Assembly: GCF_032854445.1 (NCBI RefSeq)
Contig: NC_088306.1
Coordinates: forward strand, 21,609,764 to 21,673,763
Direction of reading: 5' to 3'
Source of the DNA: Liolophura sinensis
Lineage: Eukaryota; Mollusca; Polyplacophora; Chitonida; Chitonidae
DNA length: 64,000 nt
Both the position numbers and the translations under genes were made by a program. Under the pieces are notes generated by a model, which saw only the letters and a list, made by a program, of their open reading frames with translations, was not told where the DNA came from and made no database searches. Positions 3,891 through 59,292 of this stretch are shown in pieces; positions within the stretch are counted from its first letter, which is position 1, and every line of letters begins with the position of its first letter.

Positions 3891-3926
<36 letters not shown>

Positions 3927-6409
3927 ATTGGTGTTTTACGCCGTACTCAAGAACATTTCACTTATACGACGGCGGCCAGCATTATGGTGGGTGGAAACCG
4001 GGCAGAGCCCGGGGGAAACCCACGACCATCCGCAGGTTGCTGACAGACCTTCTCATGTACGGCCGGAGAGGAAGCCAGCATGAGCTGGACTTGAACTCAG
4101 ATCGACCGCATTGGTGACAGGTTTATTAGTTTGTTCGGTACTATTTGCTGGTTTTATTTGTTGTATTGAAGTTGAGCAAGTCTGGGTTGAGCAAGAATTA
4201 AATGCAGATTGAGCCTAAAGACGCACAGAACTATCCCTATCACAAATTATTCCCTGACAGCTGTTCAGGGAATGGTGAGAGGATTTGACCACAGATATAT
4301 CAGATATTTTACTTAATGTAAATTCTCTGATTGTTGTTGCTGGAAACATTCAATGAGAATGTCTATGGATCTAAGTTTTTTTACATTTTTTAATGTCCCG
4401 GCTGAGCCCTGAAGAGCCCGTTTTAAAAGAAAGGAATGAATTTTTGAGGGCAGGTTTTGTTCACTCTTCATTGAGAGAATAACGAAAGGTGGCCAACTGT
4501 CCAGCTTATTATTATGCAAGTCTGACAAGACTTCCAACCTCTTTTTATCAGCATTCGACGAAGTCGGCTGAGAGGAAGACCTGATGAATACATTAGAGAC
4601 AACAGGCCAAAGGTTTAGGAAAGACATAATAGATATATAATCAGAATTCACCCCAAGTGTTACCCACCCACCACAGAGTGCTAACAAGGGCAAGCCTGAA
4701 CCTGGGGATACCCAGTAGGAAACACACCAAGGACTACACACTAGGTATACTCGACTAGATGGCCTTAATGAGCAAATCACAATTCCCACCCAATGAATAA
4801 GGTCAAACATTAGACACTTACTAATCGAATCATTCATCCGCCACCGCCTCACATGTAGTCTTGCAAATGAAATTTGAGAAATATCATTTATTCTCTAATG
4901 AGTGGTGTTGTGGGCGACCAGAATGCAGAAAGAAAACCAACTGCCACTGGTGAGTTACTGACAAACTTTTTCATATGTGGCTGGTAGAAGAAAAGTGGTC
5001 TCAAACAAATGTTATACTGCCCAAACAGCCTCATGATAACCATTCTCTGCTTATTGTCACCGACGCCGCAGGAGTAGTGAGAGCAGATTAATGTGGAAGT
5101 TGCCTGACCAAGGTTGGGATTGAACCTGCATCTCGTGTTGGAAGTATTGTGTACATGTTAAATATTTCTACACTAAACAATTGAACCTTTTTATCAGTGA
5201 CTTACACAGAGTCCCCTCTTAACGTCAGCGTCAAGTTTTCTTCTTTCAATCTTTCTACTTCCACTGTTAACTGCACATTCTGAGCCTTAAGAACTGCAGC
5301 ATTTTCAAACAATTTGTTTTCTGCAAGTCAAGAAAGAACAAAAAGTCACATCAGTTCACATTCTATTAAAAATGTCTGTTTCATGTTCTTCGTTAAATCC
5401 GTGCCTTGTATTTAACAAGATTTAATGATAATAATTCCCTGATGTTTAATGTCGGGTTCAGGAACTTTCTACCTATGACTAGACAGCAGGTTAATTAATT
5501 TGATCAGTAAGATTCAGTTGGCAAAAATGACAGAAATGAGTAGGGGAGGTTAGTCTTGTTGTCATGAATGGGAAGGAAGTCAGAGTTTGAAAGCCGCACA
5601 ATGTTTTTTGAGAGACAGGGATGGAACATGGAGGTAGAGTATAGTTTTTACCTCCATGGATGGATAACGATGAACGTAACAATTTTAAAATAGCAATATC
5701 AGTCCATCCGAACTGATTCGAATTTTCTCTGATGTGAGTTTAATTCTTAAAATTCTGGAATCACATTACGTGTTAGTTCCGTTTTTTAAATTTCTGCTAT
5801 TCTGGACATTCTACAAAAAATATGACCAAATCTCATTTAGCTTTTGACTTCATTCATGCTTTCATAGTTTTTCTCCATATGTCCATCACTGTAATAATAA
5901 TCTCTCTTATTAAGGTAAGAGAATTAAGATATATCGTTCGCAAGCCTGGAAATAAATGGAAACCTGGAAGTTGGTGCAGGATACAATGGCAAACATTCCA
6001 GCTATTCACAAGTATTAAAAACGTTGCAATGTTATTTACATCTCAATTTTGTCTTGTACCAAATAGATGGCCCCTGTCAAAATGTTGTATGGTACAAGGC
6101 ACTGTCGTTGTCCTACTGCTTACTTTCACGATTGGTTTGTATTTGTGCGTATCTAAACTCAAAAATGACCTGTGTCTTGCAACATTATGTTGTTGTTGAA
6201 CCTGTCAGATGATCTTGACCCTCATGACTATGGCATTGTCGACACAGTCGTCATGGATATCGATGACAGTAAAACCCTGCCTGCCAATTGACGCCAGACT
6301 CAAAATACTCACGGGCCTGAATGATACCAACAAAACATCGCGTTTGTTTTTTGTTTCGACGTTTTAGGGCCTTCAAGATTTGCTCTTTCCAGTCGCCGCC
6401 TTCCGCCAT
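569..6409 (-). CDS. ATG16L1: ATG16L1-like autophagy protein, 5' part only
   Basis: Four coding exons on the minus strand: 6409-6313, 5320-5206, 1874-1787 and 646-569, together 126 codons with matching phases (1, 2, 0, 0). The start codon opens MAEGGDWKEQILKALKRR, a short amphipathic N-terminus like the ATG5-binding helix of ATG16 proteins. Residues from about 33 onward are coiled-coil-like, and the junction of exons 3 and 4 gives QEELTELHRKTGHNAQQIID, which closely matches the start of the ATG16L1 coiled coil. In the family this protein binds ATG5-ATG12 and directs LC3/GABARAP lipidation at the phagophore; the C-terminal WD40 propeller would lie beyond position 1. Donors are GTGAGT, GTAAGT, GTAAGT and a weaker GTAACA at 568. 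Exon 4 has a second upstream AG near 688, but the acceptor at 647 keeps frame and family alignment. Assignment rests on recalled family sequence, not a search. Confidence 0.85.
1549..1692 (+). mobile_element. SINE family B, 3' part
   Basis: TGGAAATCCGTCCTGCAACAA, GGAGGCACATTACGTGCATT and CCCCAAGCACTCACTCACTC match the 3' half of the full copy at 29281. The element ends in an (ACTC)n run at about 1662-1690. Confidence 0.75.
2154..2320. repeat. Short minisatellite with GAATGAATGA tracts
   Basis: Four imperfect copies of GGAGGAGGAAACCAGAATGC followed by AGGAATGAATGAATGATG-type sequence, with variable numbers of GAAT. The copies are in ATG16L1 intron 3 to intron 2 territory, next to the LINE 3' end. 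Confidence 0.75.
2904..3160 (-). mobile_element. SINE family A, near full length, inside the LINE
   Basis: Complete from the TTTGATTGGTG tail side to the tRNA-like head (AGCGCTAACCAACTGAGCC on plus). Target duplication GGAAAATT flanks it (2896-2903 and 3161-3168). Removing the SINE rejoins the LINE reverse-transcriptase frame (GNFPSSQRKDCIILVP). Confidence 0.85.
3895..4117 (-). mobile_element. SINE family A, 5'-truncated, with long poly(T)
   Basis: A run of about 33 T precedes GATTGGTGTTTTACGCCGTA; the copy stops before the tRNA head. Duplicated flank CAGGTTTATT at 3885-3894 and 4118-4127 marks the insertion. Confidence 0.8.
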
Positions 6410-6805: not shown

Positions 6806-8666
6806 AGATTACTGGCACCATGCAGTAGTATACAGGTGTTATGAAAGTGTGAAGTACTGGTACCATGCATTAGTACACTGGTGTGATGGAGGTGTGAAGT
6901 ATTGGCACCATGCAGTAGTATACTGGTGTCACGGAGGTGTGAAGTATTGGCACCATGCATTAGTACACTGGTGTCACAGAGGTGTAAAGTACTGGCACCA
7001 TGCAGCAGTACACTGGTGTCATAGAGGTGTGAAGCATTGGTATTATGTGATGGCATACTGGTGTCATGGAGGTGTGAAGTACTGGTATCATGCAGTGGCA
7101 TACTGGTGTCATGGAGATGTAAAGCACTGATATTATGCAGTAATATCCATGATATATACTGATGTCATGGGTGTGAAGTACTAGCATCATGCAGTAGTAT
7201 ACTTGTGTCATGGAGGTGTGAAGTACTGCTACCATAAAGTAGTATACAGGTGTCATGGAGGTGTGAAGCATTGGTATTAAGTGATGGCATACTGGTGTCA
7301 TGGCGGTGTGAAGTACTGGCACCATGCAGTAGTATACTGGTGTCATGGAAATCTGAAGTACTGGTATCATGCATTAGTATACAGGTGTCATGGAGGTGAG
7401 AAGTACTGGTGTCATGCATTAGTATACTGGTGCCATGGAGGTGTGAAGTACTGGCACCATGCAGTAGTATACTGGTGTCATGGAAATCTGAAGTACAGGC
7501 ACCATGCAGTAGTATACTGGTGTCATGGAGGTCTGAAGTACAGGCACCATGCAGTAGTATACTGGTGTGATGGAGGTGTGAAGTACTGGCACCATGCAGT
7601 AGTATACCGGTGTCATTGAGGTGTGAAGTACAGGCACCATGCAGTAGAACACAGTTGTCATGGAGGTGTGAAGTACAGGCACCATGCAGTATTACACAGT
7701 TGTCATGGTGGTGTGAAGTACTGGTACCATGCCTTAGTATACCAGTGTCATAGAGGTGTGAAATACTGGCGCCATGCAGTAGTATACAGGTGCCATGGAG
7801 GTGGGAAGTACTGGCACCATGCAGTAGCACACAGGTATTACGAAGGTGTGAAGTACTGGTACCACGCAGTAGTATACTGGTGTGATGGAGGTGTGAAGTA
7901 CTGGCACTATGCACAAGTATACTGGTGTCATGGGGGTGGGCAGTACTGGTACCATGCAGTAGTATACTGGTGTCATGGAGGAGTGAAGTACTATCATCAT
8001 GCAGTAGATACAGGTATATATTGGTGTCATGGGTGTGTGAAGTACTAGCATTATGCAGTAGTACACTGGTGTCTTGGACGTGAGATGTACTGGTACCATG
8101 AAGTAGTATACAGGTGTCATGGAGGTGTGAAGTACTGATATCATGCAGTGGCATACTGGTGTCATGGAGGTGTGAAGTACTGGTACCATGCAGTGGCATA
8201 CTGGTGTCATGGAGATGTGAAGTACTGATATCATGCAGTGGCATACTGGTGTCATGGAGGTGTGAAGTACTGGTACCATGCAGTGGCATACTGGTGTCAT
8301 GGAGATGTGAAGTACTGATATCATGCAGTGGCATACTGGTGTCATGGAGATGTGAAGTACTGATATCATGCAGTGGCATACTGGTGTCATGGAGGTGTGA
8401 AGTACTGGTACCATGCAGTAGTATACAGGTGTCATTGAGGTGTGAAGTATTCATACCATGCAGTCGTATAATGGTGTCATGGGTGTGAAGCACTGGTACC
8501 ATGCAGTGGTTTGCTGGTGTCATGGAGGAGTGAAGAACTGTCACCGTGCAGTAGTATACAAGTGTCATGGAGGTATCATGGAGGTGTGAAATACTGGCAC
8601 TATGCAGTAGTATACCGGTGTTATAGAAGTATCATGGAGGTATCATGGAGGTGTCACGGAGGTGTC
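6806..8666. repeat. 45-bp minisatellite, about 41 units
   Basis: Tandem units close to GAAGTACTGGCACCATGCAG followed by TAGTATACTGGTGTCATGGA and GGTGT (45 bp). Unit ends vary (CAGTGGCAT, GATATCATG variants), and 8130-8400 contains an alternating higher-order pair. Because 45 is a multiple of three, open frames run on both strands, including one of 467 codons on minus at 7165-8568. I treat these as by-products of the array, since they show only the repeat. It begins about 400 bp upstream of the ATG16L1 start. Confidence 0.9.
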
Positions 8667-9899: not shown

Positions 9900-17722
<7,823 letters not shown>

Positions 17723-42984: not shown

Positions 42985-43535
42985 GTCAGGGCTATAACTC
43001 AGTTTAACAAGTTTCTACATGGTTTTAACTTTAGTGGATACATTGATATACGGATAACAATGTGCCTCAACACGCAATTGTCCCTTTTCGCTGTTGTCGT
43101 GGTAACCAGATAGCCATTTTCCTGATATATCCAATAACAAGTATATAAATAGATATGATTTCGTGTCCAGGCTATGACTCCAACTGTTTTCTTGGTGGAT
43201 ACATACACAAACAGATGTGTTGTGACTCACATTTGTCCATTTTCGCAGTTGTCATGGCTACCAGATTGCTGTGTATGCGATATAGATATGAATTTGTATC
43301 AAAGATACAACAGTTTTCCACATAGTTTTAATTTTTGTTGGATACATACATGTAGATATACAGATGACAAGGTGTCGCGACTCGCATTTGTCCATTTTCG
43401 CTGTCATGGTAACAGGGTAGCGGTTTTCCTCATATACTATATAAATAGAAATGATTTTGTGTCCAGGCTACAACTGCAATTGTTCCGCATAAAGTTTTGA
43501 TTTGTCTACTTGCAAGGTTGTCATGGTAACCACAT
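42985..43535. repeat. Degenerate tandem repeat, about 165-185 bp unit
   Basis: Three to four copies share the phrases GTGTCCAGGCTATGACTC, TGGTGGATACATACA, TTGTCCATTTTCGC and GTCATGGTAACC. Copies begin near 42985, 43165, 43300 and 43460 with many substitutions. No function recognised. Confidence 0.65.
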
Positions 43536-45760: not shown

Positions 45761-48700
45761 TTAGCGATCCAAAATTTTGAAGAAATATTCCACCTATGAA
45801 ACAAAAGAAAATATTGTTTTTTAGTTGTTTGTGTAATGTCACAACGAAGAATTTTCGACGCCAGTGGTCAATTTTATTATATAGGTTGAGGAAAACACAG
45901 CTCCCAATGTAAACCATGAACTTTGACAAGGTATTCATTGACAAACTTTCCTATGTTTTTATTCACTCACTTCATAATAACAAAATTTATGTTTCAAATC
46001 ATAAATGCCCTTTTCCCTCATGAGAAACAAATACATGAAAATCTGGACCTTAAACTGTGTATGACATCAAGGTTTTAAGTGACAAGGTAAGTTCAGAATC
46101 ACTGTGCAGAACTGACCCCTGACCCTTAGACCATTATTGGGCTCACCTCTAGGAGGCCATCTTCTGGTAGATCTGTACAGTGAATGGCGTTCTGGATTTT
46201 GTCTTTTCCATACAATGCCCTTAATGTGCGAGGTCTGAGGTGTCGGGCTATCTCCTGCACAGAAATGTCGTAATCAGCAACATGAGAAAAACATTTTTTT
46301 TTTCTTGATTCATTTTATTTACTTGGTGTTTCACAATATAGCCAGATATTTTACCCAAATATCAAAGTGGAGCAGAGGTATTGTTAAGTGATTATGTCCT
46401 CTTCCCAAGACGTACAAGAAAACTAACACATGAATTCTGTTTGGTCGGCCTCTTCACATCAGTCTCACTTCTATTTAAATGTACCCTATTTTTCAACCTT
46501 TGCAACCACCTCTGCAAGCGATATTTTAAATATTCTGAGAATTATGGATCATACAGAAATAACTTTTTTTCCCCCTTTATAGGTTATTTTCTATACACAC
46601 CTGTTCCTGTTCGTTTATTTATTGAGCATTTATTTTGAACATTATTCTTTGTCAAGAAACTATTCCTTGTCAGTTATTCTGACTTAGATTCATTTTTATG
46701 TCATGGTACAATCATTTATTAACTCATTTCTGTATTTGGATTTACTTGCTTGTTTTTTTTTATTTGACAGATTGTGACACACAGTATTCCTAAACTCACT
46801 TCTTTATTTTAACTAGATAAATTTTATCGTTTGTCAGTAAGGTATGTCATACACCAACTATTCCATCTCATTTATTTACTGATTATTTTCTCCGACTTAC
46901 TGGATCGGCTGGGCCGGCCATATCCCTGAACTTTGTGGGTGCATCCTCTGATCGTATTTCGAGGGCGATACACGGCCCGTGGGTCAGCTCCTTCACCATG
47001 GCGTAGTACTCCTGGATCACGCCTTTATACACCTCATAGAACTCTTCAGCATTGGCCTGCTCCATGTTCACCATCTGCATGGCCGAGATCTCAAACCCAG
47101 CCTCGATAATTGCGCTGAGAATTTTCCCCGCAACACCTGTGAAAAAGGAAATAAATGATGTGGCCCTTAAAATTCACTAAAACCTTTTCATTGATTAATT
47201 ACTCCGGCAATTCCTTGTATTCATTATTTTTACACTTTTCTTTATACTTCACTGACTACATAAGGAATATATTTATTTATTTATTTGATTGGTGTTTAAC
47301 ACCGTACTCAAGAATATTTCACTTGTACCACGGCAGTCAGCAGTATGGTGTGGGGAAACCGGGCAGAGTCGGGGAAAACCCACGACCATCTGCAGATTGC
47401 TGGCAGACCTTGCCACTTACAGCCGGAGCATAAGTAATATGAGGCACAAGTACGGTATGGGGCTTGATTATGATAGCATACCAGCTACAGTTCCTGAATA
47501 TATCACTGAACACTACTAGACATTCGTATTTTTAAAAGACTCAACATTCAGCATGATTATGACGTCAACAACATCGTGTTTGTTCCGTCTCAATCCATAC
47601 ATGACTGTGCTATCCATTTTGTGAAGTCACCTTGCGCCAACATTTCAAAGCAATAAGTTCAGGCTGCAGGCATGCATCTCTTTAGCATACACTTCACATA
47701 CAAGACATTATATGCCAGGTCTCTGCAGAACATGAAGACGATTTATAACAGAAAATACTAACCATCAAGTACAGCATGGGGCTTGATAACACAGCAAGTA
47801 CAGTTTGTGTATTTGGCCGTGTTCTGACGAGATGGTCCTTTAGAGCTGAAGAAGAACTCTAGTTCCCTGGCTGCAGAGCCTTGTGAGTCGGCCCCATGAC
47901 AGGCATTCTGGGTTTTATCTGAGAACAAAACACAATGGTGGTTACTGTATTTGATTTGTTTATATGACTGGTGTTTAATGCCATAATCAAGAATTTTTAA
48001 CTTATGTGATGACTGCAATTCATGGCAACCACTGACATTTTTAAAGAGTAGATGTAAACTGACTTAACAATAAGCAAAATTAGTGCTTACACTGGTAAAA
48101 CCTTAACACCTACCAGGAAAAAGGCCACAAATAGAGATTGTCTGTGCTAACTCCATTAAAGCCAGCTTTGTTTTGGAGCGCATGGTCAGGGGAAATCAGT
48201 GTCAGGGCCACATACAGCTTTCTATTTTGTGCACCCTTTTTTTTTTTTTTTTTTTTTTTGATTGGTGTTTTACGCCGTACTCAAGAATATTTCACTTATA
48301 CAACAGCGGCCAGCATTATGGTGGGTGGAAACCGGGCAGAGCCTGGGTGAAACCCACGACCATCCGCAGGTTGCTGGGAGACCTTCCCACGTACGGCCGG
48401 AGAGGAAGCCAGCATAAGCTGGTCTTGAACTCACAGCGACCGCATTGGTGAGAGGCTTCTGGGTCATTACGCTGCGCTAGCGCGCAGAGCCACAGAGGCC
48501 CCTGCACCCTTTTTCAAGTTGTAAGCTAATTTGGGCATAAAATATTACGAGGGCTGAAATTACATACCAAAATACAGTGTAATAGTTTAGAAGCTGATTG
48601 AGTACATTTCCGTCCTAGATTCTATTACTTATGAATTATGATTATGATTACAGGGTAGAAGGCTTCCCACAGGTAAATGTGGTAAATATGTAACACAGTA

Positions 48701-51700
48701 AGTGACAGTAAGTTTTGCCCTTAACATACTGTCTAACAATATATGCCATACTCGTACACAGTGCTACCGAAAAGGGATCAAAGTTAAGCGTGGTATTTTC
48801 GGAAACCTTGGTTTGAGTATGTTTTCTGTGTTTAATGGGGGGTTCCCGATTTCAAAACATGGGAAAGGTAACTTTTTTGCAATAGGGATGTTTCGACTGT
48901 AAAGAAATAAAATGTGAGCGCTGGGTGAAATACTTCATTCAAATTATACGAGTGGTTGATGACAGATATAATCACCCTTTCTGTCATCTTGCCGCTAACT
49001 CAGTCCGTGAGAACATTAAACGACAGTAACCAACGGGTGAAAACGTCGTTTACCATACCCTATATTCATAACACCACAGCAGGTAAAATACACATCACTT
49101 TAATTTACACACAAATGATCTTTTTTACCTGTTCCAAAACGTGCCCTGATGCTGTTTGGGGCCTCTTTCCTTGCCACACTGGGATCTGTGGGCCCCATCA
49201 GAGCTCTCCATGTCTGAACAGCATTCTGGCCCATAAGCTCCATGGCTATCACGGGCCCACTACTTATGTAGTTCACTAGGTCGCTGCAATCAAACACATA
49301 CCATTTTACATTATGACCTCTGTTTGAAGACTTAAAGACATTACAGCATAAACTACTTTTGATGGAACAAAAGTTCAAAATCATGCTTTGACACACTTCC
49401 ACCACCTCATGGGATTAAAAAGTATCCTGCCTCATCCTTAAAACTGTACTGAAGATTATTTCACATATACAATGGCAGCCAGCATTCTGGTGGGAGGGAA
49501 AGCCAGCAGAATCTGGGGGAAACCCATAGCTACCTGCAACTTGCAGGCAGACCTACACACGGATGGCTGGAGAGGAAGCCAGCATGAGCTGGACTTGAAC
49601 TCGCAGCTACAGCTTTGGTGAGGCTCCTTGGTCAATGCCTCATCATCAGTGTAGTGTACTTGCTAAGACAACTATGTACAAACATATAAGTTACACATCA
49701 AAAACAAATGATGCTTGTGCTCCCATGCCTTTTCTGAAGTACTGGGAAAACCGTATTATTTTATTGGTGTTTTAATACCGTTTTCAAGAATATTTCACAC
49801 ATACATGTCCACAGCAGTCAGGTTTTTATTGAGTGAAGAAACCACAGTGCTTTGGGTAAACCAATGTCCTTCACCAAGGAAGTTTAATACAAAACCCCCT
49901 GACATAAAGCAGTAGTTCAGCACGACGCGGTGACCCAGGAACTCCTCACCAATGCAGTGGCTGTGAGTTCAAGTCCAGCTCGTACTGTCTTCCAGCAGCC
50001 TGCAGATGGTCGTAAGTTTCCCCCAGGCTCTGCCTGGTTACCTCCCACCATAATGCTGGTCGCCGTCGTATATGTTAAATATTCTTGAGTAGGGCATAAA
50101 AACACCAATTAAATAAATAAATAATTAATATAAAGCTGCAGCAGAACTAGTAGGAAAGCGTAAGAACTCGTCCTAAAGAGTCATCCAAAGTTTGCTCCTT
50201 TCGAAACTACTGTTCACCTTAACAAAAGACACAACATGGTCTAGATGTAGCTGGGGAATTTCATCAACGTCACCACATTACTGGTTATTCCAAGCCATCT
50301 GAATGAGACAGGATTTACTTACTCGAGGAAAGGTTTTCCTTTGTGTTCCTCGTAAAAATTGAATACCTCTGTCCTTGACAACTGGCACATTTTCAGCTTA
50401 CTGACCATAAAGCCCTTCTGGGTGATGATGTCCAAGATTTGCCCCACTTTGTTCACACACTCAGGCTTTATCATGGCAAAAGTCCTGACAAAATACAAAA
50501 GAGTATTAGTTAGCAGTTTCAGAATGCAAAACACCATCATGATTATTCAAAGTTATCTCCCTTCAATTGCATCACCACACTACATGCATCCAAATTCCTC
50601 AATCTATTTGCACATGAAAGCAACTTTCGCCGCCATTTTTTAGCACCATTTTGGAACCAAAACTCTACCAGTTCTGCCGGCCAATTTCGGAGCTCAAAAG
50701 GAAAAGTTTGTTAGTCTATTCAGAATAATGTCCTCAGAGTATACTGAAACAAACATCTTGCAAAAATGTTAAACTGCTGATTTACTCCTTGTTACTCCTT
50801 ATTACATAATTACATGTATGTATTAATTTGATATCTGTTTTGATATATTGAAAAGATCACAAAGTGAAAATCTTGCTTAATATGTATTTTCAATTTTCAA
50901 AGCATTAAGCAAGATCAGAAATCATCCAACCGTCAACAATTTATTAGATTGTTGTTTCACGCCGCACTCAAGAATATTTCACTTATACATCAGCGAGTAT
51001 CATTATGGTGGGAGGAAACCGGGCAGAGCCCAGGGTAAACCCATGACCATCCGCAGGTTCCTGGCAGACCTTCCCATGTACAGCCGGAGAGGAGTGTACA
51101 ATTTAAGCCTGCTGTTCACATGAATGTTGAAGACCCAGTGTCACTTACTTTTCTTTCCTGGAGCTGAATTTCCTGCGTGTGTAGTCATCGGCATAGTCTA
51201 CGATGTGTAAAGCACGGGAACAGATGTTGATAATGCTTCCTATGTAAAGATCCCTCATGGACAGGTTATCAACCTTGTTCCTCTTCAAGAACATTTTGTG
51301 GGCTTTGATATCAAACTATAAATGAGACAGAGAAACAATAAAATAGAAATCCTTGTAATGTGAATACATGTAATTATGATGTTAAGACATAATAGTAGCT
51401 CTACATCAACACCCAGAAAGAGTATGTACTGTATCATCAATATCCTTACCACGATAGCGTAATTTTATAGATGTATCATAAGAAAAATCAGAACTGATAA
51501 ACAGTGAATGCCAACAAATGCTGTGCTGTCCATTTTCCTGGTAAAATATGCTGATTTTGAAACCTTGAACCTTGTTTTTCATCACCCTGAGCAAATCATT
51601 TTTACCATCTTCATTTATTTCTGGGGTTATTTTCTTATCCTAAACTGATAATTTTTCTGTGGCTGCAAATGTTTAAGGTTAGAAAAGGCTTTGTTAAAAA

Positions 51701-53111
51701 AAAAGGTTGATGTGATGTCGTAGAGTGTTGTCAATTTACTAAAGAATCTCCTTTTCACAATGAACATCTGGAAAGTGGGTCGACGACAAACCAGATGTGT
51801 CAACTTTGTCTTAAGTGTTCAGGCCACAGTTTAATGAAGTTACTTCCCTTTATATTAAAATACAGTAACTAGGAATAAATCAGGGGACTGGAACCAGAAT
51901 GTGTCCCACTGACTACCTAGCATCACAATGTAGCAAAACTAGGCTTTTACTGTTATTGATAATTGAATATAGTAATGCAGGAATGTTACACGAGATACTT
52001 GACTTGTATTTTATGGTGTGTTAAATGGTGCACGGTATGACAGTCAATAGTGTCACTGCTGTAAGTCTTACTACACACAGTACAAACTTACACCATTGTA
52101 CATTAACAAATATGTTCGTTAAGGGAAATATCCTGCATAACGTTTTGAACATAATGGAGAGAGATGAATTTCAATCTAAGATAAACACGTATTAATAAAG
52201 AAAACAGAAAAAAAACACCCACCTCTCATATTACTATTCTGAAAGGATGTAATGGGACATGTATATACCGTAATTGTTGAGCCTTTTCAACTGCGTTTGA
52301 ACCAATATTTTAAAAGATTCTGTAAGAACTTTTGAGTGCAGAGACATAGCTTGCACAATTTTAGGGCAACTCCCATCTTCAGTGACACAAACAAACCATT
52401 TTAGTCTAATTTTCATGACAATTGTATGCGAAAATTTCAATGAGAAAAAAAGGCTGTTTTAATTAATCAAATGCCACCATACTTATGAATAGTCTCTTAC
52501 CATTTCCACTGAGCTATCCTCTGTGTAATAGGTGATTTTGTAACGTCGCACCAATGATGCAAATGGATCGTACCATTCTGTGATAAAACTGTAACAATCG
52601 TCCTCCGGAGTATTCTGCCGACCAATCATAATGCACATAAAAAGTAAACATTATATTAGAAAATTCTGCTCACTTCTAATACAGGCTAAAATTGGCCCTA
52701 TTAACCAGACGTCTTTTAGATGCGATATATCTAAAGTTTTGTGATTTCAGCAGTTTCAAAATCTGACTTTAACTTTATCTGTGAAAATCTGTGAAAACTC
52801 AAGGATCTTTGAAGACTTCTTCCAAATTTTATACCACCTACAAAATACGTCCACGTTTGCCCATGTACCTATTTCTGTGGAAGGAGAGACATCAAAGAAG
52901 TTTCAAATCTTCTATCTCCTATCTTTAACCAGGCAGCTGACCTAACATAGCCCCATAGATTGATAACGCCATGTCTATACCAGAATAGGCCATGTTGTTG
53001 TTTGCAGAGACAAGATACATACAGAATTTATTGAATATTTTAAAGCCCAAAATCAGTTATCAAAATCTTGCTCCATTTACCATTTGAAAGTGGCTATTAA
53101 CTTACCATCAT
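45761..53111 (-). CDS. NME7: NME7: DM10 plus two nucleoside diphosphate kinase domains
   Basis: Nine coding exons on the minus strand: 53111-53106 (only ATG ATG), 52614-52501, 51315-51149, 50484-50323, 49283-49129, 47918-47763, 47136-46901, 46254-46147 and 45793-45761. They total 1137 nt and 378 aa; human NME7 is 376 aa. Phases match at each join. Residues about 3-95 form the DM10 domain (TEWYDPFASLVRRYK; HKMFLKRNKVDN). NDK1 spans about 96-238 (FAMIKPE; active-site-like NACHGADS with His209). NDK2 spans about 242-378 (CCVIKPHAV; NAIHCTDLPEDG with His357; YFFKILDR end). Vertebrate NME7 is a gamma-tubulin ring complex component and an axonemal protein. An in-frame stop precedes the ATG pair, so the start is firm. 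Introns contain many SINE copies. It is head-to-head with BLZF1. Confidence 0.95.
46488..46565. mobile_element. Inverted-repeat element family C, end fragment
   Basis: TTTTTCAACCTTTGCAACCA and CCTCTGCAAGCGATATTTTA match the left end of family C. NME7 intron 7. Confidence 0.45.
47268..47432 (-). mobile_element. SINE family A, 5'-truncated
   Basis: (TTTA)n tail, TTAACACCGTACTCAAGAAT and CCACGACCATCTGCAGATTG; the head is missing. NME7 intron 6. Confidence 0.75.
47950..48024 (-). mobile_element. SINE family A, old 3' fragment
   Basis: TTTAATGCCATAATCAAGAA and TTATGTGATGACTGCAAT resemble the core end. Weak. Confidence 0.45.
48242..48502 (-). mobile_element. SINE family A, full length, near consensus
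   Basis: Poly(T), full core, and head ending GCGCGCAGAGCCACAGAGGC CCC on plus. Target duplication TGCACCCTTTTT at 48230-48241 and 48503-48514. On minus the head shows a box B-like GAGTTCAAGACC. This is the best reference copy of family A in the window. NME7 intron 5. Confidence 0.88.
49443..49628 (-). mobile_element. SINE family A, diverged
   Basis: CAATGGCAGCCAGCATTCTG, GGGGGAAACCCATAGC and GAGAGGAAGCCAGCATGAGC; the tail is lost. NME7 intron 4. Confidence 0.75.
49744..49872 (-). mobile_element. SINE family A, heavily decayed
   Basis: TTATTGGTGTTTTAATACCG and TTTCAAGAATATTTCAC followed by degraded core. NME7 intron 4. Confidence 0.5.
49916..50130 (+). mobile_element. SINE family A, 5'-truncated, sense
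   Basis: GTGAGTTCAAGTCCAGCTCG, AGCAGCCTGCAGATGGTCGT, ACCATAATGCTGGTCGCCGT and tail CCAATTAAATAAATAAAT. It is opposite to its neighbours at 49443 and 50940. NME7 intron 4. Confidence 0.78.
50597..50776. mobile_element. Inverted-repeat element family D, second copy
   Basis: CCTCAATCTATTTGCACATG AAAGC start, AATGTCCTCAGA interior and CTTGCAAAAATGTTAAACTG end align with 10246-10429. NME7 intron 3. Confidence 0.45.
50940..51096 (-). mobile_element. SINE family A, 5'-truncated
   Basis: TTTCACGCCGCACTCAAGAA, GGTGGGAGGAAACCGGGCAG and CCATCCGCAGGTTCCTGG, ending at CAGCCGGAGAGGA. It lies about 50 bp before NME7 exon 3's downstream border. Confidence 0.78.
52276..52458. mobile_element. Inverted-repeat element family C, decayed copy
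   Basis: GTTGAGCCTTTTCAACTGCG start, GCTTGCACAATTTTAGGGCA and TTGTATGCGAAAATTTCAAT interior, matching the 65-262 copy. It ends 40 bp before NME7 exon 2's donor. Confidence 0.55.
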
Positions 53112-53320
53112 GATGTCTTTGGTGACCGAAAGGCGAAAGAAAATGATATTTTCAGTCGGGGTTGTAAAAATACCTACGAAAACCGTCACTTGCCCGCGCG
53201 TGTCTCAGAGTTGTTGATGGCAACGGTGTGAACGACGCTGACTGTAACAGCCTGTTTCATTGGACGCTCTGTCCTGGTCTAACTTCCGGTTGTCACTATC
53301 ACTTCCGGATTGAGAAACAC
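53112..53320. promoter_or_regulatory. Likely bidirectional promoter between NME7 and BLZF1
   Basis: Only about 210 bp separate the NME7 ATG (53111, minus) from a donor-like site AAACAC|GTAAGT at 53321 (plus) that would end a non-coding BLZF1 first exon. The stretch holds two ETS-type ACTTCCGG sites (53282-53289 and 53301-53308), an inverted CCAAT box (CATTGG near 53259) and an X-box-like GTTGTT-GAT-GGCAAC (53210-53224). It is more GC-rich than its surroundings, with CpGs, and no TATA box is seen. The architecture is that of a housekeeping divergent promoter; the start sites are inferred. Confidence 0.55.
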
Positions 53321-53926
53321 GTAAGTAAAGTTTGGCGATAAAACTTGTGTTTGTTTGGAGCGTTACTTCATTTAAAGTTGCATGGCGAACACGATATTTA
53401 AACTGTACAATCCAGCTGTTCCCAAGGACTGAGATGTTTTGTATTTGACCCCTCAAAATTTCCACATTGCGTACGATCACTCAAGTGTCCGGCAACAGCC
53501 GTTCAACAACAACAAATGTGAAATGTTCAAATACTGATAGGTACATACAGCCGGTTGATCGAACATTCTGAACTGTTCATTACAATTGAATACTATTGGT
53601 AGGTTCATTGAGAATGTTATCAGTATGTCAGTTTTCCAATTTGTTCTTCAATTAGGATTTCTAGTAATTAATAGGCAAAACACTTTCGTCCCTAGTCATT
53701 TCCTTCCAAAGGTGTTTAAGATGTGGGTGCAATCCCTGTCATACTCTGTATTCAAAGATCACAGTTTGCCGCTAAACTTATATAGATATATTCATGTATT
53801 GCTATAAGATGAATTATGAATGCATGAATTTGTTAATCTAGATGGGCTCACAGTGCTATTTAAAATGTTGACATTCCATCCACGCATGAATTAAGACGAC
53901 AGGCTTCAAGCTTATTAGATCTATCG

Positions 53927-54148
53927 AGCCTGTCACCAATGCCATCGCTGTAAGTTCAGGTCCAGCTCATGGCGGTTTCCTTTCCGCTCGCGTGCATGGG
54001 AAGGTCTTTCAGCAACTTGTGAATAGTCATGGGTTTCCCTCAAGTTCTGTCTGGTTTCCACCCACCATAATTTTGGCCGCCGTCACATAAGCGAAATATT
54101 CTTGAGTAGGGCGTAAAACACCAATCAAATAAATAAATAAATAAATGA
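53927..54148 (+). mobile_element. SINE family A in the BLZF1 5' UTR intron
   Basis: ATCGCTGTAAGTTCAGGTCC, GGGAAGGTCTTTCAGCAACT, CACCCACCATAATTTTGGCC and a tail of (AAAT)n. Its 3' end is about 60 bp before the acceptor of the first coding exon. Confidence 0.78.
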
Positions 54149-54233
54149 ACATTAGATCTATCTGAATTGCCAGTGCATAGCATCATGTTATATCTTGCCT
54201 TTTCTTCAGAACTGACATCTTTTGTGTTACATA

Positions 54234-57200
54234 ATGCACAATTCTTCTACTGTGTCTCGGAACAGTGCAAAACATGGCACTCAAGCAAAACCAAAATCAA
54301 GTCAGCCAGGCATTAATCCCTCTATTCAGACCCCCTTGGATTCCTCAACAGTTATATTAAGATCTGCTGTCCCCAAATATGGCAATTACCAGGTTGGCAA
54401 AAAGAAACCGAAAGAAGGGGCAAATTCATCAGAGAAAAGAGGAGTGCGAGCAGTGGAGGTGAATCTCAGCCACCTGAACAAACCCACAGGGAGAATCCTC
54501 GCCTCTATGGCACCTATAGTAGTGGGGCAGAAAACACATGAAGCCCTGAGGTCAAGAAATGATTCTGATCATGGTGTCAACAGTTGCTCTAAAAGCCACC
54601 AGGCAGGGCTTCCTGCACAGAAATCTGTGAGTTCTAAGAGTACAAACAGTGTACAGTCTGTTGCTGCTGTGCCAGCTGTTCCCAGTAGTGATCGCTTACA
54701 CAGAGATTCCAATTCTCAACAAGGGACACAAAAAAGTGGTAAAGACAAACCGGTCAGTGTTGTGGACCCCATGCAAGCTGGGAGCCCTGTGACACAATCC
54801 ACTTCTGCATCCAGCACAGAGGAGCAAACGCTCGGACTGGACTCATACACGACAAACAATAACATATTCCTTGAGCAGTGGACCAAATCTGCCTCAGAAG
54901 CTATGTGTTTGAAAGAGGAAAACAAATCACTGAAAAGTCAGCTTGAAGTTCAGTTGCAGGTCAGTTTATCTTTCATCTGCAGGTATTTACACATCTGTCT
55001 TAAGTCTAAATCAAACTGCATGTACATTGGTAGTATAACAGGTCTGAATAATCACATATTAGTTTAATTCACAGGTATTTAAACATTTAAAATTTAGACA
55101 ACATATTGGGTCATAGACTCCCATTGAACATGTAAACATATCTATAGTTTGCATTTCTTGGTAGTTGTTGTCATGACATATGACTGAAAATCTGTTAAGT
55201 AAGATGTAAAACCATTAGCATACATACATGTCTTGTTAGACCACTTCGGTGGTCTAATACTTATATGGCAAGATACTTCAGTGGTGACAGCACTTTGGGG
55301 GCATGGACTAGCAGTGCCACAAGAAGTCACAGTGTGTGTGAACAAACCTAATGACTCTTTGTCAGAAATTGTTAAGGTATGACGTTAAACCCCAAGCATA
55401 CATACATACGTACATACATACATACATACATGTACATGTATGCTCCCTGCAATCTACATGTAGCTAACCTTTTTCTTTGTCAGCATGGTTTTGTTCACAG
55501 TATATACTATGCAGTTTGGCATTTCATGGATTTGTACATTAACTTATTTTGTAACAGGTGAACAAGGAGTTGAAAAGATTACTTGTGGCTTCGGTTGGAG
55601 AAGACTTGTGTCAGCGAGTGGAACATCTCATTAGGTGTGTGATGGAGTTGTTGTAAACACAAGACTTGTATTGATCTTTAGAGTTCTAAAGGAACTATAG
55701 GTATATTCAAAAGCCTGTCAGAGATTTGTTTACATTTGGCATTTGCATTTGAGGTGATGTTGTCCAATTCTAAACCCACAATTTTCCTGCTCCCACAGTT
55801 TGTAGGAACTTGCTGATAATAAGTGGTAAACAAAGCTTGTGTGGCAGTTACACAATCTAATGTTCATTGAACAACAATTGTGCGTGGAAAGGTCTTCCAG
55901 CAACCTGTGGATGTTTGTGGGTTGATGATTTCCTCCCACCAGCATTGTGGCAATGCTGGTGGGAGGTGAAGTGGGAAATAAAAGTGAAATAGATTAAGAT
56001 GTAAAGAAACTTTTTGAGGTGAACAGTTGTTTTGATGAAAGATAACCATGGTAAAAAGCATCCTAAAAGCCTATGTTTTGTGTTAATGGGAGATAACTCT
56101 TTGCATGAGCAGGGATAAAGCGCAGTTGTCAGCTGACCTAGGTGACTTTGCCAAAAAGATGACAGAGGATTATGAGAACTTGGACAAGGTGTCAATACAG
56201 GCTGACATGTGGAGAAGCAAATACCTGGCCAGCAGGTGGGTGCAGCTCTTGTATAGGGCCAGTCAGTGAGACTTCGGTTTATGAAGTTTAAAAGACAAAA
56301 AAAAAGAAATGCAAAGCAAGTAATATAACCTTATCTGTTCCATGTGAGGAGTGATTTCAGATTTTCTTGCTGGAATTCTTATGTCAGCAGATTTTGGAGA
56401 AACTGGAACCACAATGTTGTCTCATGCATACCCCGTGATTTTCAGTCTAAATGGCAAAAACGCGGAAACAATGATTGTGTGATGTCGCATTAGAAAGCTA
56501 TGTCCTCAGCTTGAAGAGATAACTCAATCCTGATACGTTAATATTGACAACTGGTGATGCTTTCAATAGTTCTGATATGCACAGTTTGCTTACTTTATAA
56601 GGTTCAGCATCACAAGTATAGAAAGGTACACATTTTAAACTGTAGGTGGGATACTTTAGCAATACAGACATCAGTTAGATCTAGTTTTGTTATGTGGCTG
56701 TGTTTCATCGTTGAGTTTCCAGGTAATAGGTTCTTTTAGTTGTCTAGAATGAGGAAGATTCTGTTTCTTCAGACATTATAAGGCATCGTAATTCTAAACT
56801 TCAAGGTTTTGTCTCCATGAAAGCATTGTAAAAATACAATATTTTCCAACTATGTACTGTATCAGGCTAATGACGGATGAGTTGGCAAAGAGCAAGGCGT
56901 TCTATGGAGTCCAGTATCAGGAGAGTCAAAGGGTGTTGCAGGAGTTGTTGATGGAGAGGCACGAATTGAGGACCAATCTCTCAGAGTCGTACAGGTATAT
57001 TATCACTCCATCCTACAGGTATAATATCACGCTGTCCTACAGGTATAATATCACGCTGTCCTACTGGTATTATATCACACTGTCCTACAGGTATAATATC
57101 AGTCCGTCCTACAGGTATAATATCACCTGTTCTACAGGTATAATATCACCCCATCCTACAGGTGTAATATCACGCTGTCCTACTGGTATAATATCAGTCC

Positions 57201-59292
57201 ATCCTACAGGTATAATATCACTCCATCCTACAGGTATAATGTCCCGCTGTCTTACTGGTATAATATCAGTCTGTCCTACAGGTATAATGTCACGCTGTCC
57301 TACCGGTATAATATCATGCTGTCCTATAGGTGTAATATCGCGCTGTCCTACAGATATAATATCAGTCTGTCCTACAGGTATAATATCACACTGTCCTACA
57401 GGTATAATATCATGCTGTCCTACTGGTATAATATCATGCTGTCCTGAAGGTGTAATATCACGCTGTCCTACAGGTATAATATCAGTTTGTCCTGCTGGTA
57501 TAATATCACACCGTCGTACAGGTATAATTTCATTCTTCCTCTGGGCTCTGCTCAGTTTCCTCCCACCATAATGCTGGTCACCATGGTATAAGGGAAATAT
57601 TCTTGAGTACGGAGTAAAACAACAATCAGATAAATAAATAAATAAAAAGAATATCACTCAGTCTCCCCCTCACTGCTAATGAAGAGGCAGGGGCTGAGGA
57701 CCAAGAGCCCCGCAGGTCCTGCTTTAGACAAAATACTTCGCCTTTCATTGGACAGCAACAGTTACATGTGGGATGTGTTTATTCCTGTATCCTGCAGCCA
57801 ACGTGTGTCTGCTGACTACTTTATCTCCCTTTGTTTGGTTGTGAAAACAATGGTCACATTGCAGAAGCGATTTGCCTATACACAGGTCTTATGCTCTTAG
57901 TTGATCGGTGTTTCACAGGATAAATTTGTACAATAACATAGTTTCTCATTGGCAGGATACGGAAATAAATGGTGTTAGTAACCCTCCTATTGAGATACAA
58001 TAACACCTTGCTACTGACACCATATACTTCTGTATCCTGTCACTGAGTAATCCTTGTGACTAATATAATCCTACAGCTATATCACTCGGACCAGCATATA
58101 TACTATCAGCCTTCTTCTCAGTTTATGAATATGACAGGATGAATTGTCTCAATGGTAGAAGCCATGGCTGTCCTGTAATGTCATTCAGACATATCATTCC
58201 AAAGTTATCATACCATTTGTCATTGACAAATACTAGAGCTTTTTTTTTTTTTACTTTTATGGCTAATCTCAGATTCTTTCTTTCTGTTGCCTGACAGATG
58301 CCTGCAGCAAGTTAGAGATGCCTTTGATCCGTTAAATACACACAAATCGTCCAACCTCCAGTCCAGCAATGTAATAGATCTGGCCAAAACGATTCAGAAC
58401 CTTGCAGAGACCATCCGCTTCCGCCTCCTACCTCCAGGTCCTGTTTTTAACAGCACCCCGTTTAATCTTGACACAAGGGTATGGACAGATAATCTAACCA
58501 AAGGAGAGTCATCAGCACAAGAGGTAATGTTCAGGGATATCGGTCTTAAGATTTAGAATGAGGAATTATTCAATTAGAATACACATGTTTTTGTGTCAAG
58601 CTAAGGAATTTCATTCCATTTCCCAAATTTCATTAAAAAAAGAAAGTATATTACAGGCATTTTGTGAAGCCGTCAGCAAGCATTCTACAGATTTTACAGG
58701 AGGTAGCTGACTGATCAGTGCTACTGTGGATGTATGCGTATTACCCATCTCCACTGCCTGTTGGTTCAGGATGCAGCCTTGCTTCAGTTTGTCTGTTATG
58801 TCATTGTGCCCCGTGACTTGTCATGTTTTCCCATGTTGAGCACAGTGTAAAATATTCAACGAAATATAGCAATAAATCTTGGCTGCAGTTTTAAATTTTT
58901 TTTTTATCCTTTTTTAGGGTACGTTATTCTTTAAAAATATTGAATAGAGTGTAAAACTGTTTAAAATGTGGTAAAATGTTGAAAAGAACCTACTTATACA
59001 GAGATCTCTGTATCTCCAAGTATATTTAAATGTGTCTCCTTAAGTTGATATTCTGCCGTAAACAGTACCTATCCGTGAAGAGCTATGCTGAACTGTTTCT
59101 GAACTGAATTTTGGTTTGTTGTAGCTTCTCTCGCGCAAGGTGGACACGTCCGATCTGAGTTCTTTTTCCCAGCCTTCCTCCACAATGGCTCCCGCCTCCT
59201 TCAAGATAGACCGTTATCATCCGCAGATGTGCTTTGACAATCTCACCCTGAACTGCTGTGGAGAGTGCAAAGGGGACATCAAAGTCCTTTAA
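54234..59292 (+). CDS. BLZF1: Golgin-45 (BLZF1) homologue, Golgi coiled-coil protein
   Basis: Six coding exons: 54234-54959, 55558-55634, 56113-56235, 56866-56994, 58298-58523 and 59125-59292; 1449 nt, 482 aa (human is about 400 aa). All phases agree. Acceptor ttcttcag at 54209 precedes the ATG by 24 nt, so a 5' non-coding exon is expected. Residues 1-210 are Ser/Pro/Gln-rich and low in structure, with a conserved-looking LNKPTGRILASMAP patch near 87-101. Residues about 222-375 are heptad-rich coiled coil (EENKSLKSQLEVQLQ through SESYRCLQQVRDAF). The C-terminus has CFDNLTLNCCGECKGDIKVL, four cysteines plus a hydrophobic tail as in golgin-45, which binds GRASP55 and Rab2. The family maintains medial Golgi stacking. 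Identification rests on the coiled coil plus C-terminal signature and the NME7 neighbour; it is recall, not a search. A minisatellite begins exactly at the exon 4 donor. Confidence 0.82.
55366..55440 (+). mobile_element. SINE family B-type tail with (ATAC)n
   Basis: TTGTTAAGGTATGACGTTAA ACCCCAAGCA followed by TACATACATACGTACATACA. Same 3' end as family B but with a different simple-repeat tail. BLZF1 intron 1. Confidence 0.6.
55878..55966 (+). mobile_element. SINE family A fragment ending in a perfect hairpin
   Basis: AAAGGTCTTCCAGCAACCTG and TTTCCTCCCACC are core, followed by the exact inverted repeat CCTCCCACCAGCATTG / CAATGCTGGTGGGAGG around a TGG loop (55932-55966). BLZF1 intron 2. Confidence 0.7.
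56995..57530 (+). repeat. 24-bp minisatellite made of splice-junction-like units
   Basis: About 22 head-to-tail units of GTATAATATCACGCTGTCCT ACAG, beginning at the exon 4 donor of BLZF1 itself (TAC AG|GTATAT). At about 13 of the unit borders the sequence is CAG|GT, preceded by a pyrimidine-rich TGTCCTA. All units are 24 bp except one of 23 bp (unit 6). Reading through from exon 4 stays open to 57571. Confidence 0.93.
57538..57645 (+). mobile_element. SINE family A, 3' half
   Basis: CTCTGGGCTCTGCTCAGTTT, CCTCCCACCATAATGCTGGT, TTCTTGAGTACGGAGTAAAA and tail (AAAT)n, directly after the minisatellite. BLZF1 intron 4. Confidence 0.78.

Follow-up and report, generated by a model that had tools for sequence, protein, structure and literature searches.

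NME7 and BLZF1 form an apparently old head-to-head gene pair in the chiton Liolophura sinensis, with a probable shared promoter

The window, by which we mean the whole 64-kb stretch of DNA analysed here (contig C12, 21609764-21673763, part of an assembly that totals 609,464,459 bases in 632 contigs), carries NME7 on the minus strand and BLZF1, the golgin-45 gene, on the plus strand as divergent neighbours. The splice anchors of both genes were placed by exact match, and the exons were then translated (Table 1). The genome contains a mollusc-type haemocyanin tandem array (eight PF14830 matches, all on contig C8), in agreement with the molluscan source assumed in an earlier note on this DNA. The chiton genome has been described as holding 28,010 protein-coding genes; Liolophura is reported to have undergone partial genome duplication, and chiton genomes to be extremely rearranged. 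Searches of the genome with the two proteins yielded no second copy of NME7 or BLZF1.

Table 1. Features of the NME7–BLZF1 locus (window positions)
Feature	Position	Strand	Basis or remark
NME7 coding span	45761..53111	-	splice anchors, open spliced frame, Pfam, PDB, single locus
NME7 coding exons 1-5	53106-53111, 52501-52614, 51149-51315, 50323-50484, 49129-49283	-	
NME7 coding exons 6-9	47763-47918, 46901-47136, 46147-46254, 45761-45793	-	
Proposed shared divergent promoter with both 5' ends	53112..53320	.	209 bp, no repeat copy, 14 CpG
Putative RFX-type X-box GTTGTTGATGGCAAC (weak lead)	53210..53224	+	pattern match
CCAAT box	53259..53263	-	
ETS-type site ACTTCCGG, copy 1	53282..53289	+	
ETS-type site ACTTCCGG, copy 2	53301..53308	+	
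Predicted BLZF1 intron 1	53321..54209	+	splice consensus; carries dispersed repeat copy ~53926-54150
BLZF1 (golgin-45) exons	54210-54959 (ATG 54234), 55558-55634, 56113-56235, 56866-56994, 58298-58523, 59125-59292	+	splice anchors, open frame, PDB peptide, genome search

The nine coding exons of NME7 gave an open spliced frame of 378 amino acids, extending from the ATG at 53111-53109 to a stop codon that ends at 45761. The first coding exon consists of ATGATG, just two Met codons, and is followed by GTAAGT. In a PDB search, residue 3 of the protein paired with residue 3 of the 380-residue NDK chain of 8snb (1.1e-149), which we take to be a sea urchin entry, and this alignment supports the assigned start. 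Pfam revealed an N-terminal DM10/PH domain (PF25364, PH_NDK7_N, 1.5e-33; PF06565, DM10, 2.5e-05) together with two NDK domains (PF00334 in two stretches, 4.9e-79). The best full-length match was NME7 rather than another NDK, with residues 8-377 of the 378 aligning to the 376-residue NME7 chain of 7ung, presumably the human protein (2.6e-154). These observations confirmed the minus-strand NME7 with an ORF start at 53111 that the earlier note had read from the sequence. Seven of the eight genome matches of the protein fell in the window, indicating a single locus, and the eighth, on contig C1 and 41% identical, was another NDK. A comparison with IMG/VR returned two pattern stretches and no relative.

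BLZF1 comprises six coding exons with an open spliced frame of 482 amino acids, whose stop codon ends at 59292. Pfam gave no match for the protein at E values up to 0.1, and its best PDB match was the golgin-45 C-terminal peptide 5h3j_B, covering residues 457-480 (E 0.0049). The naming of the gene with its ATG at 54234 as BLZF1 in the earlier note holds. According to a review, the C-terminus of golgin-45 binds GRASP55 through a terminal PDZ ligand and two cysteines that take part in a zinc site, and the protein acts at the Golgi. Compared by eye with the published description, the chiton C-terminus NCCGECKGDIKVL retains both the zinc-ligand Cys-x-x-Cys and the hydrophobic end that would serve as the PDZ ligand. 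A GRASP gene was located on contig C4 at 9.456-9.458 Mb, and chiton golgin-45 is a candidate for binding its product at the Golgi. The central region was 34% identical over 265 amino acids to a provisional human BLZF1 sequence, which serves as a lead and not as a test. All six genome matches of the BLZF1 protein lay in the window, again indicating a single locus.

At BLZF1 exon 5, the 5' splice site (56994/56995) is spanned by the first unit of a 24-bp minisatellite (22.8 copies, 56986-57532), which repeats it. The array contains 16 AG/GTR donor-like junctions, including the real BLZF1 donor. Splicing from the first five of these to exon 6 keeps the frame open and adds multiples of 8 residues, and the remaining 11 lie beyond a 1-bp slip (57114 to 57137) and run into stops. 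The minisatellite thus looks like a tandem expansion of a splice donor, and it could yield length variants of golgin-45.

The ATGs of the two genes are 1,123 bp apart. An in-frame TGA at 54213 precedes the BLZF1 ATG at 54234, so the 5' leader is non-coding, and the splice sites upstream are an acceptor at 54209/54210 and a perfect donor at 53320/53321. We therefore predict a non-coding exon 1 of BLZF1 with its donor at 53320, which lies 209 bp from the NME7 ATG. For the non-coding exon ending at 53320 in the earlier note, the donor and the non-coding leader were borne out, while the exon itself stays a prediction from a single donor; another GTAAGT, at 53950, lies inside the repeat copy of intron 1. 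Alternatively, BLZF1 transcription might begin shortly before exon 2, around 54.2 kb, which would place the two starts about 1 kb apart and leave the promoter unshared. The TGA and ATG of exon 2 are compatible with any upstream start. However, a consensus acceptor ends at 54209, a dispersed repeat ends about 60 bp upstream and no ETS-type site occurs near 54.2 kb, which makes a start at exon 2 quite improbable.

The dispersed repeat is about 220 bp long, ends near AAATAAATAAA and is presumably a mollusc tRNA-derived SINE. Examples in the window are located at 53926-54150, 48241-48457 and 3907-4121, and the repeat matched another 14 stretches of the window as well as 18 stretches in 12 other loci, with 70-94% identity among the copies listed. 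An ARAGORN scan of the window was negative for tRNA genes.

The interval between the NME7 ATG and the predicted BLZF1 donor is free of repeat copies, and at least as many CpG as its 14 occur in 0.3% of the sliding windows of this length, some of them overlapping the interval. Among its motifs, which were picked after the sequence was seen, are both copies of ACTTCCGG present in the 64 kb (0.57 expected; at least two anywhere in 11 of 100 shuffles); 12 further loci of this genome, 75,108 bp in total, lacked the motif. From these features, we consider it likely that NME7 and BLZF1 belong together as an old divergent pair and that both transcripts start within a single compact, CpG-rich promoter no longer than about 209 bp. 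RNA polymerase II would start in both directions from the shared core, and broad expression both ways would come from ETS-type factors bound at the ACTTCCGG pair. The literature on the regulation of BLZF1 and NME7, mostly as represented in listings, contained nothing on a shared promoter.

The interval also matches an RFX-type X-box pattern, which occurs once in the 64 kb (0.19 expected; at least one match in 18 of 100 shuffles). A slightly looser pattern gave three matches in the window, of which two belong to a degenerate repeat around 43.1-43.5 kb, and none in the 12 other loci. Neither pattern was found upstream of five ciliary and three other genes, a control in which the first exons of the ciliary genes were not all located; allowing one mismatch added a single match, 1.2 kb upstream of KIFAP3. 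Since none of the five ciliary regions matched, a role of RFX is treated as a lead. As the weakest step of the proposed mechanism, binding of an RFX factor to the X-box might increase the expression of NME7, and that of BLZF1 along with it, in ciliated cells. It is rather unlikely that the shared promoter constitutes a bilaterian regulatory unit linking golgin-45 to the ciliary programme via NME7, in which ETS factors would set a base level, the RFX X-box would raise both genes during cilium building, and golgin-45 would thus help to supply membrane for cilia, a role not recognised so far.

A fully degenerate X-box pattern gave 85 matches in the window and was discarded as useless. The degenerate repeat itself (43093-43530) contains four RFX-like palindromes identified by eye, for example GTTGTCATGGTAAC, two of which fit the stricter pattern; they sit 2.2-2.7 kb past the NME7 stop.

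For the mammalian locus, we take C1orf114 and CCDC181 to be the same gene. Human NME7 is described with BLZF1 upstream and ATP1B1 downstream (PMC12524336), the cattle order is given as NME7, BLZF1, CCDC181, SLC19A2 (PMC4831767), and human BLZF1 overlaps C1orf114 with its 3' end (PMC2151771), so that its 5' end faces NME7. A head-to-head arrangement in human follows from combining these passages of the three papers, in agreement with the divergent human neighbours named in the earlier note. The mammalian genes have the same neighbours as in the chiton, with BLZF1 upstream of NME7, and the identical arrangement indicates that the pair is common to a mollusc and mammals. The pair is real and apparently old, and an origin before the protostome–deuterostome split is the plain reading of the two lineages compared, one chiton and the mammals (human and cattle, from the papers). 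BLZF1 and C1orf114 also adjoin in opossum, chicken and Xenopus and are on different chromosomes in zebrafish, in a passage that does not name NME7 (PMC2151771). As far as listings indicate, none of the papers naming both genes is about invertebrate synteny, and neither gene is visible in the text of a catalogue of overlapping antisense transcripts published in 2002.

Of four mammalian neighbour families sought in the chiton genome, two that lie near the pair in cattle and human were located on the same contig as the chiton pair when the paralogues within each family were taken together. With the pair at 21.66 Mb of C12, the main SLC19A match is at 14.19 Mb (about 7.5 Mb away) and the main ATP1B match at 16.98 Mb (about 4.7 Mb away), with one further weak ATP1B match on C1. 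KIFAP3, a bovine neighbour of the pair, is on C13 in the chiton, so the linkage of the wider region is partial. FIRRM/C1orf112 (DUF4487) had no match anywhere in the chiton genome, nor in the control genomes, which renders that search uninformative. C12 accounts for 31.08 of 609.46 Mb, and the chance of finding at least two of the three located families there is estimated at ~0.008. The positions of SLC19A and ATP1B, on C12 and megabases away, indicate that the wider linkage group survives in part with its order shuffled, while the NME7–BLZF1 junction was kept. An independent origin of the adjacency in chitons and mammals, in whose favour we found nothing, is extremely improbable, given that a given gene has a chance of ~2e-5 of being the head-to-head neighbour of BLZF1 (an estimate from 28,010 genes), that the orientation is identical and that two flanking families lie on the same chromosome.

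Among 40 new interferon-sensitive genes of a human study, NME7 and BLZF1 share a co-expression module, in passages that do not comment on their adjacency, and the recurrent set of seven genes in that study includes NME7 and not BLZF1. The co-expression fits a shared promoter in human and is no proof of one. It also bears on the possibility that the adjacency is ancestral but neutral, with two separate promoters, and that the pair lasted because a 200-bp target is seldom broken. Short intervals are indeed small targets, and the two proteins act at different sites, NME7 at the gamma-tubulin ring complex and the cilium and golgin-45 at the Golgi. Nevertheless, two spaced promoters would hardly fit into 209 bp, the SLC19A and ATP1B families have shifted by megabases on the same chromosome, and the human interferon data show a shared module, which together render neutral persistence unlikely. 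Under a shared core, a break inside the core would deprive one gene of its promoter, and the junction would therefore survive while its neighbours move off. For the shared promoter offered in the earlier note as the simplest constraint, the anatomy (compact, CpG-rich, repeat-free, with the ETS-type pair) provides good support, and we infer the sharing itself, with an indivisible shared core as the best explanation.

Ancient metazoan microsynteny was reportedly described by Irimia et al. in 2012. The constraint proposed for NME7–BLZF1 is one core promoter, in contrast to a distant enhancer residing in a bystander gene. As in the ancient microsyntenies (PMC8851819), the adjacency of the chiton pair is shared with a distant animal lineage, here the mammals. 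The pair also resembles conserved divergent pairs with bidirectional promoters, such as HSP10/HSP60 (PMC2871058), in its head-to-head order, its presumed shared promoter of less than 1000 bp and its conservation across distant species; it differs from them in that NME7 and BLZF1 have no obvious common function and that the bidirectional promoter here is a proposed one. The main text of that work does not name the NME7–BLZF1 pair (PMC2871058). The pair is a newly documented case of this well-known class.

Chitons and mammals have been separated for more than half a billion years. A ciliary gene and a Golgi gene that are joined from chiton to mammal, in a class reported to be heavily rearranged, offer a clean test of whether an indivisible core promoter can by itself hold genes together over such a time. 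In human, variants or edits at the junction could act on both NME7 and BLZF1, and the region has been studied for NME7 and glucose handling (PMC12524336).

Beyond the 3' end of NME7 lies a gene for a DDX3-like helicase, and an RPL8-like gene lies near 12.3 kb of the window; both names are our reading of Pfam results on 85 of 224 open frames, a list that excluded the gene span and two tandem arrays. Downstream of BLZF1, where open frames of at least 62 amino acids were inspected in 30 kb, the next recognised gene encodes a GFI1-like zinc-finger protein and lies outside the window (locus L031; by eye). In the tetrapods described, C1orf114 follows BLZF1, unlike in zebrafish, whereas the genes recognised on either side of the chiton pair are the GFI1-like and DDX3-like ones. 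Long tandem arrays at 6810-8574 (45-bp unit, 38.9 copies) and 11461-12173 (26-bp unit, 19.7 plus 7.5 copies) are open in several frames, with no sign of coding. Upstream of the window, retrotransposon-like open frames were recognised by eye at L033:5287-9150.
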